Positions 7,486 to 12,473 of a stretch of DNA of 64,000 nt are shown piece by piece; within the stretch, counting starts at the first letter, position 1, and each line of letters opens with the position of its first letter. The notes beneath the pieces are model-generated. The model did no database searches, had not been told where the DNA came from, and saw nothing but the letters and a program-made list of their open reading frames with translations. The stretch spans positions 1-64,000 of the forward strand of contig LDXL01000003.1 of the NCBI GenBank assembly GCA_001443365.1, read 5' to 3'. This DNA comes from Thaumarchaeota archaeon CSP1-1 (lineage in GTDB: Archaea > Thermoproteota > Nitrososphaeria > Nitrososphaerales > Nitrosopumilaceae). Made by a program: the position numbers and the translations under genes.

Positions 7486-8742
7486 TTAAGTTTGGTCAAG
7501 CAATTCCTTTGCTCTATTAAGTGAGATATTATTTTCCTGAACCATTTTCTGTACTATTTTATCTATCTGTTCAGGCTTGGCACCTGCTGCAGATGCAATA
7601 TTTTTGGCATGAAGCTTCATGTGACCTTTCTGTATTCCTTCTGTGGCTAGGGCCATTATTGCACTAAAGTTTTGAGCTAGTCCAACTGATGCCATAATAC
7701 ATGCAAGCTCTTGAGCTGAAGTAACTCCTAAGATTTTTGTACAAATTTTAGCCATTGGATGAACATTAATTATTCCACCAACAATTCCTACAGATAGAGG
7801 TAACTCAATATTTCCAATTAGATTTCCATTTTTATCTTTTGACCATTTGGTTAAAGAACCATATCGACCACTATGTGCAGCAAAAGCATTTGCTGCAGCT
7901 TCAATTGCTCGACTATCCTGACCTGTTGCATTTGCAACAGCAATGATACCATTCATAGTTCCTTTGTTATGAGTTACAGCACGATATTCGTCATTAACTG
8001 CAAATTGATATGCCAAAATTATATTGTCGATAACTTGTTCTCCACCTACTCCTTGTTTATCAAAGATTGCTGTAGCTCTTACCATTCTTCTTGTAGAGTA
8101 ATTTGATAAAATTCTAAGAACTACTCGTCCTCCAGTTAATTTTTCAATTAATGGCGCGATAGCCTCACACATTGTGTTTGTTACATTTGCACCCATCGCA
8201 TCGCCTACATCAATTAAAAGCTCAACAATTAACATAGGACCAACTTCTGTTTTGATCTCTTTACATGTGATCTCCTTTGCCCCTTTTCCCATCTTTGAAA
8301 GAGTCTGACTCTTAGAATTTGCAATGTCAAGAATTTCTTGCGAAGATTGCATAATTTTTGGTATAGAAGACTTTGTATCTGTATCTACTACTTGAATCTG
8401 ACCAATGCAAAATGATTCATCAGCTTTAGCTGAAAAACCTCCCTGAATTTTTGCAATTTTTGCAGCCTTTGATGCTGCAGCAATTACTGATGATTCTTCA
8501 ATTACCATAGGAACAAGGTAGTCTTTTTGGTTTACTTGGAAATTAGTTGCAATTCCAAGTGGTAATGAAAAAACTCCGATTGCGTTTTCGACCATTGTAT
8601 CTGCTTGTTCAAAGGAAATTCCTCCACCTGAATTTTTGATTATCTCTATTTCTGTTTCAGTTAAGTTAGAAAAATTTTTTACTATCTCAAGTTTCTCTTT
8701 CCTATTTTTTTCAAAAAATTTTGGAATAGAAGAATCGACCAA
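7486..8742 (-). CDS. mvaA: HMG-CoA reductase, class II type
   Basis: Reduces HMG-CoA to mevalonate, the committed step towards archaeal isoprenoid lipids. The 418-residue sequence resembles the class II (Pseudomonas mevalonii type) enzymes rather than the class I archaeal form. It has the ENAIGVFSLPLGIATNF segment near 52, the catalytic glutamate in VPMVIEESS (82-83), the lysine K260 in THNKGTMNGI, D276 in TGQDSRAIEA and H374 in IQKGHMKLHA. There is no membrane anchor. The start is TTG, 1 nt after the stop of the PQQ-type dehydrogenase, with a GAGG ribosome-binding site inside that gene's end, so the two are translationally linked. Confidence 0.92.
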   Translation of the reverse strand: MVDSSIPKFFEKNRKEKLEIVKNFSNLTETEIEIIKNSGGGISFEQADTMVENAIGVFSLPLGIATNFQVNQKDYLVPMVIEESSVIAAASKAAKIAKIQGGFSAKADESFCIGQIQVVDTDTKSSIPKIMQSSQEILDIANSKSQTLSKMGKGAKEITCKEIKTEVGPMLIVELLIDVGDAMGANVTNTMCEAIAPLIEKLTGGRVVLRILSNYSTRRMVRATAIFDKQGVGGEQVIDNIILAYQFAVNDEYRAVTHNKGTMNGIIAVANATGQDSRAIEAAANAFAAHSGRYGSLTKWSKDKNGNLIGNIELPLSVGIVGGIINVHPMAKICTKILGVTSAQELACIMASVGLAQNFSAIMALATEGIQKGHMKLHAKNIASAAGAKPEQIDKIVQKMVQENNISLNRAKELLDQT

Positions 8743-8743
8743 T

Positions 8744-9859
8744 TTACCTCAGAATCCTTACCAATTTATCATCAGAACTATCTGGAAATGCTTTGCCATC
8801 TGTATTTGATGTTATAAGGTATAGATAGCCATCAGGTCCCTCATTAACATCCCTTATTCGTCCCAAGCCACTCAAAATGCTTTTTTGATATTCAACCTCC
8901 CCACCAGTTATTTTCAGCCTATCTAGTTTCTCGGGTTTCATTGAAGCCATTATCATATCATTCTTGAATTCTAATTTATCTCCTGAATAAAATACAATTC
9001 CTCCAGGCTCTATTTCTGGATCATAACACATAATGGCATTAACAAAATCTCCATCACCTGAACATTGTTGTTCAGGCCAACCATAATTTTTCCCTTTAAT
9101 TATCAAATTGATTTCATCGTTTTTTGATGGTCCCGTTTCTGTGACATATAGGCTTCCTGATTTGTCCCAGGCCATTCCTCGAGGATTACTATGTCCGTAT
9201 GAGTAAACTTGTGAATTTGAAAATGGATTATCAGATGGAATTGAACCATCATCGTTTAATCTTAAAATTTTTCCTGCTAATGAATTTAAGTCTTGAGCGT
9301 CATGTGAAGAATCAGAACCTGCACCTGTTGCAACATATAGCTTATTGTCAGGTCCAAATTTCATCACTCCTCCGTTGCTAAACCTAGATCCTGGAATCTT
9401 GTCTAAAATAGTAATTGCGTCTTTTAACTTATTTTCAGATTCCGTTATTTTGAGAATTTTATTCCATAGATTTCCATTTTCTTCGTATGTAAAGTAAACA
9501 TAAAGAAAATGATTGTTTGTAAAATTTGGATGTGCCGCTATCCCAAGTAATCCTCCATCAAAGATGGTGGCAGTTCGAAAAGTAGCTAGAGGTTCTTCAA
9601 GCATGACATCTGATTCAATAACTCTTATTTTTCCAGTTCTTTCCGTTATGAAAATTTTATCATCTGCAAAAGCTAATGCCCATGGTTTTTCAAGATTAGT
9701 TGCAAGAATTTGTATAGTTTCATTTCCTGATTCTTGTAAATTTGGAGGCGGAATTGGAGGTGGCCCAGATGGTGAAGTAAGAATTACAATTGATGCAATA
9801 ATTGCTGCGATTATTCCAGCAATTCTAATTCTTTTATCCACAACGAAAAAACTTTTCAA
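8744..9859 (-). CDS. PQQ-dependent sugar dehydrogenase-like protein, membrane-anchored
   Basis: A 371-residue six-bladed beta-propeller of the soluble aldose dehydrogenase / GSDH family. An N-terminal membrane segment (about residues 12-30) and a proline-rich linker (GPPPIPPPN) precede ATNLEKPWALAFADD, the usual propeller start. Other family motifs are GGVMKFGPDNKLYV, SYGHSNPRGMAWD and ETGPSKNDEIN, which contribute PQQ and calcium contacts in characterised members. The catalytic domain would face the outside. The start is TTG. No PQQ biosynthesis genes are in the window, so cofactor loading is unproven; the natural substrate is unknown. Confidence 0.82.
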   Translation of the reverse strand: MKSFFVVDKRIRIAGIIAAIIASIVILTSPSGPPPIPPPNLQESGNETIQILATNLEKPWALAFADDKIFITERTGKIRVIESDVMLEEPLATFRTATIFDGGLLGIAAHPNFTNNHFLYVYFTYEENGNLWNKILKITESENKLKDAITILDKIPGSRFSNGGVMKFGPDNKLYVATGAGSDSSHDAQDLNSLAGKILRLNDDGSIPSDNPFSNSQVYSYGHSNPRGMAWDKSGSLYVTETGPSKNDEINLIIKGKNYGWPEQQCSGDGDFVNAIMCYDPEIEPGGIVFYSGDKLEFKNDMIMASMKPEKLDRLKITGGEVEYQKSILSGLGRIRDVNEGPDGYLYLITSNTDGKAFPDSSDDKLVRILR

Positions 9860-9891
9860 ATCCTATTAATCATTTCCAAATTTTTGATAAA

Positions 9892-9901
9892 GCGTATATA
9901 T
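9892..9901 (+). promoter_or_regulatory. TATA box for the initiator tRNA gene
   Basis: GCGTATATAT lies about 24-33 nt upstream of the tRNA 5' end at 9925, the normal archaeal TATA-to-start distance. The upstream neighbour is transcribed away from it, so this element can only serve the tRNA. Confidence 0.6.
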
Positions 9902-9924
9902 CACCCTGAAGTTACTTTTGATTT

Positions 9925-10052
9925 AGCGGGGTGGGGAAGTCAGACTACATAGGGCTAAGTCATCCCGGCGGGCTCATAATCATTAATGATGAGAAACCCG
10001 CAAATCAGTAGTTCAAATGGAGTTAAAACTCCTGAAAATCTACTCCCCGCTA
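9925..10052 (+). tRNA. Initiator tRNA-Met (CAT) with three apparent introns
   Basis: Acceptor strands AGCGGGG (9925-9931) and CCCCGCT (10045-10051) pair, with the A1-U72 pair and three G-C pairs in the anticodon stem (GCGGG/CCCGC) that mark archaeal initiators. The CAT anticodon is 9975-9977. Three insertions interrupt the cloverleaf. A 15-nt one in the D loop (about 9944-9958) leaves a canonical loop with G18G19 and A21. A 17-nt one sits at the canonical 37/38 site (9979-9995). A 21-nt one follows the TTCAAAT T loop (about 10019-10039) and can form GGAGT-TAAA-ACTCC. Removing 53 nt gives a 75-nt mature tRNA with discriminator A10052. Exact splice points of the D-loop and T-loop introns may shift by 1-2 nt. 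Confidence 0.9.
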
Positions 10053-10053
10053 G

Positions 10054-11382
10054 TTAGTTTCTGTATTTTTGATACCATTGAATAGTAGAATCAAATTTTT
10101 CTTCTTTGTTCATCCTTTTCATTCTTTGTTTAGGCCTAGTCAGATGTCTATATGCTGAAACTGCTGGAAGATACAATTTTGGTATTAATTTACGAGGGAT
10201 TTCATGAATAATTTTATTAGAGGCTTTTTTTCCGCATTTAATACATCGAAAACCTTGGTTTGTACCTTTTGATTTCATACTCTTGTTGCATTTTTTACAA
10301 ATTGGGTTTTCTAATCTGAGATCTTTTTCAAGTTTGATAATCTCAAGAAATTCAACATTTAAGATTCTTTGATGGTTCTTAGTAGCTTTTCTGATTCCTC
10401 CACCAAGACGTATTTTATCTCCTAGTATTAGCTGCTGAGCAATTGAAGTTATTTTTGTTGGTTCGTATACTGCACATGGTACCTCTTTTCCTAGTTTGGT
10501 TACTGAAAAAATAACATGTCCACCACGTTTCATTTCCGGTTTTTTTGAAACAATCCCAGTAATTGTACCTGATGTATATGGTTTTAATTCAAAAATATCA
10601 ATTTCATTTTTAAGGTGGTCACCAGTTCCTTGATTGGTTTTAAATGCCATATAGCCTTGTAACTTTTCTTGTGTTCGAATCATTTTAGATGCATAAAGTA
10701 CCGACTCCATATTCTCCCCTCGTAATCCGAAGAAAACTGGATCAGGACCATGTGGAGTAATTAAAACTCTATTTTTTTTATGATCAAAGCTGTTAAAAGT
10801 TATTGGATATGTTTTCTCTTGCATTAGCTTGACGCTTTCTTTATCTATTTTTCGTGTTTTTCCAATTTGTGATTTTTGTCTATAGCTTAACACCTCATAT
10901 GTATGATCTTCAAATTTGTAACCAATTGCACCAATTGCACCTACAAGTCCCTGGCCATTTCCAAGAGATAGTGTTTCTAATCTGTTTTTATGAGCAAAAT
11001 GCTTGGCATACTTTCTATTAATTAATCTCCATAACGCAAGCTTGCTAAATTCTGAAAAATTATCTGGTATGGTGTTTTTTTCATAAAATACAAGACCGGG
11101 ATTTGCGCCTCCTTGAGTATCAGAGTATTTTGTAACAAGTTGTTTTACCTTTCTTTTGATTTTTTCAGGTTTGTTAGTCTTTATTGATAGTGCAACAGCA
11201 CCATTTCCTCTAGTTTTCCAGGGAATATTTGGATTAAATCTAATAAGATAAGGATAATCAAGAAATTCTACCAATTCTTTTTTAAGATAATCTACAATTT
11301 TGTATGCAAGATAAGTGGTACACATAGCCTTTGGTGAATCTGTGTCATCAAACCCGATATGAAGAATGAAATCTTTTTTCAT
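10054..11382 (-). CDS. tiaS: tRNA-Ile2 agmatinylcytidine synthetase
   Basis: Attaches agmatine to C34 of the CAT-anticodon isoleucine tRNA so that it reads AUA, using ATP. The 442-residue protein begins with the signature HIGFDDTDSPKAMCTTYL; D12, D13 and D15 belong to the kinase-like catalytic domain. A central OB-fold segment (SGTITGIVSKKPEMKRGGH) and a C-terminal zinc ribbon (C362, C365, C380, C383) follow, as in Archaeoglobus TiaS. Its stop is 1 nt from the end of the convergently transcribed initiator tRNA. Start is ATG. Confidence 0.93.
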   Translation of the reverse strand: MKKDFILHIGFDDTDSPKAMCTTYLAYKIVDYLKKELVEFLDYPYLIRFNPNIPWKTRGNGAVALSIKTNKPEKIKRKVKQLVTKYSDTQGGANPGLVFYEKNTIPDNFSEFSKLALWRLINRKYAKHFAHKNRLETLSLGNGQGLVGAIGAIGYKFEDHTYEVLSYRQKSQIGKTRKIDKESVKLMQEKTYPITFNSFDHKKNRVLITPHGPDPVFFGLRGENMESVLYASKMIRTQEKLQGYMAFKTNQGTGDHLKNEIDIFELKPYTSGTITGIVSKKPEMKRGGHVIFSVTKLGKEVPCAVYEPTKITSIAQQLILGDKIRLGGGIRKATKNHQRILNVEFLEIIKLEKDLRLENPICKKCNKSMKSKGTNQGFRCIKCGKKASNKIIHEIPRKLIPKLYLPAVSAYRHLTRPKQRMKRMNKEEKFDSTIQWYQKYRN

Positions 11383-11477
11383 CTACTGGAATATGTTAAA
11401 TTTACTACATTTTTTAGTTGTCCTTTAGTAAGTTGGGATAGTTTAAATTAAAATCAACATAGGTTGGGGTATTACCC

Positions 11478-12473
11478 ATGATAAAAATAGATGAAGAGTC
11501 AATTTTCAAAGAAATTAAGGAAAGAAAAGCGGTTTCTGTAGCCCTTAATGCTCCAGATGGGCTACTTCCCAAGGTTCAAGAAACTGCTTCAAAGATAATG
11601 AAGAGATTTGGAATTCCTGCATATGTGCTTGCTGATACTACTTGGGGATCTTGTGATTTGAATTCTAATGGTGCAAAGGTTCTAGCTGCTGATGTTTTGT
11701 TTAATATTGGACATACAATCAGTTTGGATACAATTGAGAAAAATGTTGTAATGATTGATGCCTTTGATGACATATCTTTTGAAAAGATTGCAGAAAAATG
11801 TGTTAATATCTTAAAAGGAAAAACGATATCTCTCATAACTGATAGCCAGCATCTTCACCAGATTGAACCTGTAAAAAAAATTTTAGAAACTGGTGGAATT
11901 AAAGTTAAGATCGGAAAGGGTAAAGGTCAACTCAACGATGGTCAAGTTTTTGGTTGTGAGTTTTATCCCGCATCGGAAACCAAAGAGACAGTTGATGCAA
12001 ATGTGTTTTTAGGACAAAGCAACTTTCATGCTGCTGGAATTGCCCTATCTACAAACAAACCAACATATGTTCTTGATCCTTACTTTAATGAGATAAGAGA
12101 GGTCACAGAATTTGCTAATAAATTACAAAGAAAGGCAACATTAGCAATTTACAAAGCATCTGAAGCTAAAACATTTGGAATAATTGTTGGGTTAAAAGAA
12201 GGACAGTTATCAAAATTAACTGCGTTAAAATTCAAAAGAGAACTTGAAAAAGAGGGAAAAGAAGTTCAGTTATTTGCATTAACAAATATCACAAATGAAA
12301 GATTACAAAATATTAAAGGAATTGATGCGTTCATTCAAGTTGCATGTCCTAGAATTTCCACAGATAATCAATTTGATAAACCGCTCTTATCTACTCCACA
12401 AGCCACAGCACTTTTGAAGATTTTACGAAATGAGAGTATTGATGGTTACTTGCAAATTCCACATTGGTTGTGA
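11478..12473 (+). CDS. dph2: Diphthamide synthase, radical SAM-like Dph2
   Basis: Transfers the 3-amino-3-carboxypropyl group of SAM to the modified histidine of elongation factor 2, using a non-canonical [4Fe-4S] radical reaction. The 331-residue protein keeps the three widely spaced cluster cysteines: C59 (TWGSCD), C160 (VFGCEF) and C290 (VACPRIS), close to the positions in Pyrococcus Dph2. Each lies in one of three repeated domains. A monocistronic gene on the plus strand. Confidence 0.93.
   Translation: MIKIDEESIFKEIKERKAVSVALNAPDGLLPKVQETASKIMKRFGIPAYVLADTTWGSCDLNSNGAKVLAADVLFNIGHTISLDTIEKNVVMIDAFDDISFEKIAEKCVNILKGKTISLITDSQHLHQIEPVKKILETGGIKVKIGKGKGQLNDGQVFGCEFYPASETKETVDANVFLGQSNFHAAGIALSTNKPTYVLDPYFNEIREVTEFANKLQRKATLAIYKASEAKTFGIIVGLKEGQLSKLTALKFKRELEKEGKEVQLFALTNITNERLQNIKGIDAFIQVACPRISTDNQFDKPLLSTPQATALLKILRNESIDGYLQIPHWL

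Follow-up and report, generated by a model that had tools for sequence, protein, structure and literature searches.

Archaeal tRNA genes with up to three introns are established, as the available portions of PMC8450103, PMC4390854, PMC3218864 and PMC3293823 describe. In the Thermoproteales, pre-tRNA-Glu(UUC) of Pyrobaculum calidifontis and pre-tRNA-Pro(UGG) of P. islandicum each carry three short introns of the bulge-helix-bulge (BHB) type (available part of PMC4390854). Here we analyzed a comparable arrangement in an initiator tRNA. The gene occupies positions 9925-10052 on the forward strand of the window, by which we mean the whole 64,000-nucleotide stretch of contig LDXL01000003.1 from Thaumarchaeota archaeon CSP1-1, and an archaeal initiator tRNA-Met can be read in it only once three segments are removed. 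From its sequence and that of its relatives, it is almost certainly a functional single-copy initiator gene of the Nitrosopumilaceae type, with independent BHB introns at three sites, 18/19, 37/38 and 59/60 (position numbers follow our own alignment to the standard tRNA scheme).

The layout alternates four exons with three introns. Exon 1 (9925..9943; tRNA positions 1-18) matches intron-free orthologues and is followed by a 15-nt intron in the D loop between G18 and G19 (9944..9958), which is missing in several relatives. Exon 2 (9959..9978; positions 19-37) holds the CAU anticodon, and the 17-nt intron behind it (9979..9995) lies at the canonical 37/38 site with a CTCA/TGAG central helix. Exon 3 (9996..10017; positions 38-59) leads into a 21-nt intron in the T loop at 59/60 (10018..10038), which has a TTCA/TGAA central helix, the T stem as outer helix and a GGAGT/ACTCC inner stem. 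Exon 4 (10039..10052; positions 60-73) ends on discriminator A73, with no encoded CCA.

Archaeal initiators are marked by a canonical cloverleaf with an A1-U72 pair, a CAU anticodon and three G-C pairs where the anticodon stem meets its loop. All of these marks are present in the spliced form, a 75-nt product with A1-U72, G29-31:C39-41, G18G19 and A21, which ARAGORN labels tRNA-Met(cat). The first 74 of its 75 bases are identical to the intron-free initiators of G132, G147, G152, G169 and G181, in a comparison whose search pattern ends at position 72 of standard numbering. A pattern search of the 10-contig, 98% complete assembly returned one initiator copy, and at this completeness there is a small chance that a second one, free of introns, exists.

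Comparison with relatives allowed us to confirm the intron boundaries, because orthologues naturally have or lack each intron. Among the three other genomes of the same genus, two (G001 and G002) carry introns in both the D and the anticodon loop and the third, G003, in the D loop only, so that the T-loop intron is missing from all three and the anticodon intron from G003. The D intron has one possible placement. The anticodon intron has three equivalent placements, with the full 3-4-3 BHB only at 9979-9995, and the T intron has five, with the full BHB at 10018-10038. An earlier note on this DNA had read the locus as an initiator tRNA-Met interrupted by introns of 15, 17 and 21 nt. That identity agrees with the A1-U72, G-C and CAU marks and with the ARAGORN label after splicing, and the three lengths are correct, their boundaries being those of the intron-lacking orthologues. 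The coordinates it gave for the D intron (9944-9958) and the anticodon intron (9979-9995) stand as they were, while its T-side segment (10019-10039) is an equivalent frame of the same intron, the full BHB lying one base to the left. Its 75-nt spliced molecule with G18G19 and A21 is likewise what we read from the sequence.

The central helix has four of four pairs at each junction: AGUC:GGCU in the D loop, CUCA:UGAG at the anticodon and UUCA:UGAA in the T loop. The core at all three is a 4-bp helix flanked by 3-nt bulges, with an irregular outer helix in the D loop. At 37/38 this makes a full archaeal BHB, with the anticodon stem as outer helix. The 59/60 junction also agrees with the archaeal BHB definition, its TTCA/TGAA helix being all Watson-Crick and its outer helix being the T stem. 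The 18/19 junction has the core helix and the 5′ bulge but no regular outer helix, since on the 3′ side the intron strand is separated from the D stem by six bases instead of three, and one of its four core pairs is G-U (3/4 Watson-Crick). It is a relaxed BHB. The BHB fold for which the earlier note proposed testing each junction is complete at two sites and relaxed at the third.

Chance pairing was considered as a source of these helices and rejected, as shuffled introns rarely reach four central pairs and the orthologues show the boundaries. When each intron was shuffled 20,000 times, with G-U allowed and all equivalent placements tried, four of four pairs were reached in 1.5% (D), 1.9% (anticodon) and 4.3% (T) of shuffles, giving a joint chance of about 1e-5 if the three are independent. 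Counting Watson-Crick pairs only, the observed 3, 4 and 4 pairs were matched by 8.3%, 0.6% and 1.4% of shuffles. The predicted precursor fold has a minimum free energy of -42 kcal/mol (z -3.0) and includes the core helices of the D and anticodon junctions; the four core pairs of the T loop are left open in a symmetric internal loop, and the T-arm insert folds as its own hairpin. Across D introns (n=98), exon position 16 and its intron partner are C:G in 55 cases, U:G in 23, U:A in 18 and C:A in 2. These counts are as expected of a paired helix (Fisher p 1e-6, the rows being related and kinship ignored). In the T intron of locus L145 the stem keeps its pairing through a two-sided change, from GGAG..CTCC to AGAG..CTCT.

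ARAGORN was run on all eight combinations of intron removal, and it reported tRNA-Met(cat) only with the D and T inserts both removed: in both modes with all three introns out, and in intron-tolerant mode only with the anticodon intron kept. All six combinations with neither or one of the D and T inserts removed gave no gene, so this search for a folding that leaves the D and T loops uncut, which would have counted against the earlier note, returned none. The unspliced initiator gene was not found by ARAGORN in default mode, the Rfam tRNA model had no match at E up to 1 across 8500-11500, and the 37 tRNA matches found genome-wide do not include this gene. Finders without models of noncanonical introns can therefore miss an essential initiator gene entirely, as ARAGORN in default mode and the Rfam tRNA model do here.

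That both finders overlook the unspliced gene is also what a decaying, non-functional initiator copy would show, its D- and T-loop inserts being lesions. We consider this highly improbable, as the gene is the sole initiator found in a 98% complete genome, its exons do not depart from those of intron-free orthologues, and in many relatives inserts occupy these two sites and pair in the same way. A real tRNA with one canonical intron, whose mature form would retain the D- and T-loop segments as expanded loops, has an equally slight chance of being correct. The hairpin of the T-arm insert makes a bulky arm imaginable, but retention would push G18 and G19 apart and disrupt the T loop, close orthologues lack exactly these inserts while their exons are identical, and BHB cores are found at the D and T junctions. 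A functional gene with three introns is the reading we follow below.

The genome encodes the enzymes that such a gene would use. Splicing endonuclease is represented by two PF01974 genes: a 178-aa protein aligns over nearly its full length to the tRNA-splicing endonuclease chain 3p1z_B (E 1.2e-39), and a 190-aa protein, a more distant paralogue, has its best match in 5x89_A (E 8.8e-26) and also matches 1a79. Both subunit types of an (alpha-beta)2 enzyme are thus encoded, forming a putative heterotetramer, and a single gene encodes the RtcB ligase (E 2.4e-179). The available part of PMC4090602 assigns the Thaumarchaeota a two-subunit splicing endonuclease. This type fits the D junction, whose core is correct but whose distance to the D stem is six bases instead of three. 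In the processing that we propose, the precursor would fold with normal acceptor, anticodon and T stems, and each exon loop would form four base pairs with the 3′ portion of its own intron, presenting paired 3-nt bulges. The two-subunit endonuclease would then cleave each bulge behind its second base, and RtcB would join the exons into the 75-nt initiator. Transcription, cleavage, ligation, heterotetramer assembly and the order of removal are steps that we infer.

A TATATAT box (9895..9901, forward strand), read from the sequence, precedes the tRNA 5′ end by 24-30 nt and is a probable promoter element; the AAAGC stretch before it may be a BRE. A TATATA box at about 24-30 nt upstream is present in all 17 loci whose upstream sequence was inspected, the window included. 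On the reverse strand, at 10054..11382, lies tiaS (tRNA-Ile2 agmatidine synthetase), assigned by synteny and by an NCBIfam NF040849 match (E 1.8e-112) that is below the curated cut-off at 376 of 600 bits. It is convergent with the initiator gene, with a single nucleotide between its stop codon and the tRNA 3′ end. A convergent tiaS within 700 nt accompanies 92 of the 139 initiator loci that have 600 nt or more of downstream sequence, Nitrososphaeraceae records included, a count that takes in distant archaea and repeated loci. Two other loci were observed to carry unusual inserts. An apparent tRNA-Gln(TTG), L210 (G000:C10:21780-22060), has an insert of about 20 nt between acceptor strand AGCCCGG and the D arm, possibly an intron near position 7/8. 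An apparent tRNA-Arg(CCT), L211 (G000:C7:53110-53410), has extra sequence between the D arm and the anticodon arm that is possibly a noncanonical intron.

We parsed 143 distinct initiator precursors from 169 loci, a non-random set in which long precursors were sought: 8 have no intron, 50 have one, 72 have two and 13 have three. Some anticodon introns that the parse put at 38/39 or 36/37, where core pairing was tied or frame-shifted, were provisionally taken as 37/38 variants. One-base differences in D-loop length (L038, L130 and others) were excluded as introns, and two loci first parsed as three-intron, L081 and L102, were dropped because the parsed product lacked GCTCATAA. Records named as Nitrososphaeraceae mostly have two introns, in the D loop and the T stem. 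L073, L082 and similar loci of that type pair a D intron with a T-stem intron of 24-37 nt (parsed at 51/52 or 52/53), an arrangement unlike that of the window's family.

Of 200 genomes sampled from the window's family, 12 have a three-intron initiator, the window's own counted, and these twelve represent 3 of 22 genera. A pattern with a long 3′ half matched 13 of the 200, twelve of which were confirmed on their loci by coordinates or sequence; the thirteenth, G075, has D and T introns (L145). A shorter pattern alone matched a further 156 genomes (157 with G075), including G206, which has D and T introns (L194), and 31 of the 200 matched neither. Ten of the 93 named-genome loci from the long pattern have three introns. 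Nine of these belong to the window's family, including the cultured-strain record Ca. Nitrosotenuis chungbukensis MY2, and the tenth is UBA141, identical in sequence to G046 and from another family of the order. With 12 of 200 family genomes and one genome of another family carrying three introns, the gene is no unique case, and the rarity that the earlier note implied was overstated. A limited search of the open-access literature returned no report of a three-intron initiator. The gene is an uncommon instance of a known arrangement, and the natural series of intron states to which it belongs is unusually clear. As the family presents one initiator gene with zero, one, two and three introns, intron gain and loss, and any cost of initiator splicing, become directly testable.

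The three introns differ in how patchily they occur. We used a tree of the adjacent tiaS protein for 64 of 66 chosen loci, leaving out L042 and L195, which have no usable tiaS. On this tree, which is built on one gene, favours T-intron carriers and has unsettled bootstrap values and many weak deep forks, the D, anticodon and T introns require a minimum of 3, 4 and 10 changes, respectively. These counts show the patchiness of the T intron, not a rate. The row closest to the window is L040 (G003), with the D intron only.

Whether the 59/60 intron was ancestral to the family and lost many times, or was regained or moved between genomes, is a choice in which we lean towards ancestry, and repeated loss is the simplest account. 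Alike sequences of 20-22 nt with a shared GGAG..CTCC-type stem occur at the same site in five genera, and sister rows differ by the T intron only, as in L075 and L173, whose D and anticodon introns are identical. Against ancestry, the window's intron aligns better with g17, g18 and g12 (scores of 12 to 17; 11 for L110 of g17) than with g9 (4 to 11), yet g9 lies in the window's sister group on the tiaS tree (93/91); sequences of 20 nt are too short for such scores to settle the origin. It seems unlikely that the 59/60 intron is a small mobile or laterally exchanged element that has repeatedly come and gone at one T-loop site of this essential single-copy gene within a single family. A search of the genome with up to three mismatches found no source for the T intron, only its own copy. 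With G18 and G19 held apart by the D intron and the T loop interrupted by the T intron, the tRNA elbow would form only after both excisions; under the mobile-element reading, this need would place initiator supply under the control of splicing.

Among known systems, the Thermoproteales cases share with the window gene the combination of canonical and noncanonical sites in one tRNA gene. They are elongators of hyperthermophilic Crenarchaeota, whereas the window gene is an initiator of the Nitrosopumilaceae type. The permuted initiator of Thermofilum pendens is also an archaeal initiator disrupted at 59/60 and 37/38, but the break at 59/60 comes from a circular permutation instead of an intron, and a D-loop intron is not listed in the available part of PMC3218864. 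The tRNA-Ile(UAU) of the red alga Cyanidioschyzon merolae is unlike the window gene in being a eukaryotic, nuclear elongator (available part of PMC9602550). Closer to the window is the UBA141 initiator (L147, equal to L074 of G046), with introns in the D, anticodon and T loops. It belongs to another family of the order, its introns of 20, 13 and 31 nt are unrelated, and its core pairing is weaker, with 3/4 pairs at two junctions. The nearest equivalents are L104, L090, L111, L116, L110, L182, L183, L075, L100, L143 and L158, from Ca. Nitrosotenuis and other Nitrosopumilaceae-type genomes, which share with the window the gene, the three sites and the core helices, and differ from it in genus and in intron sequence.
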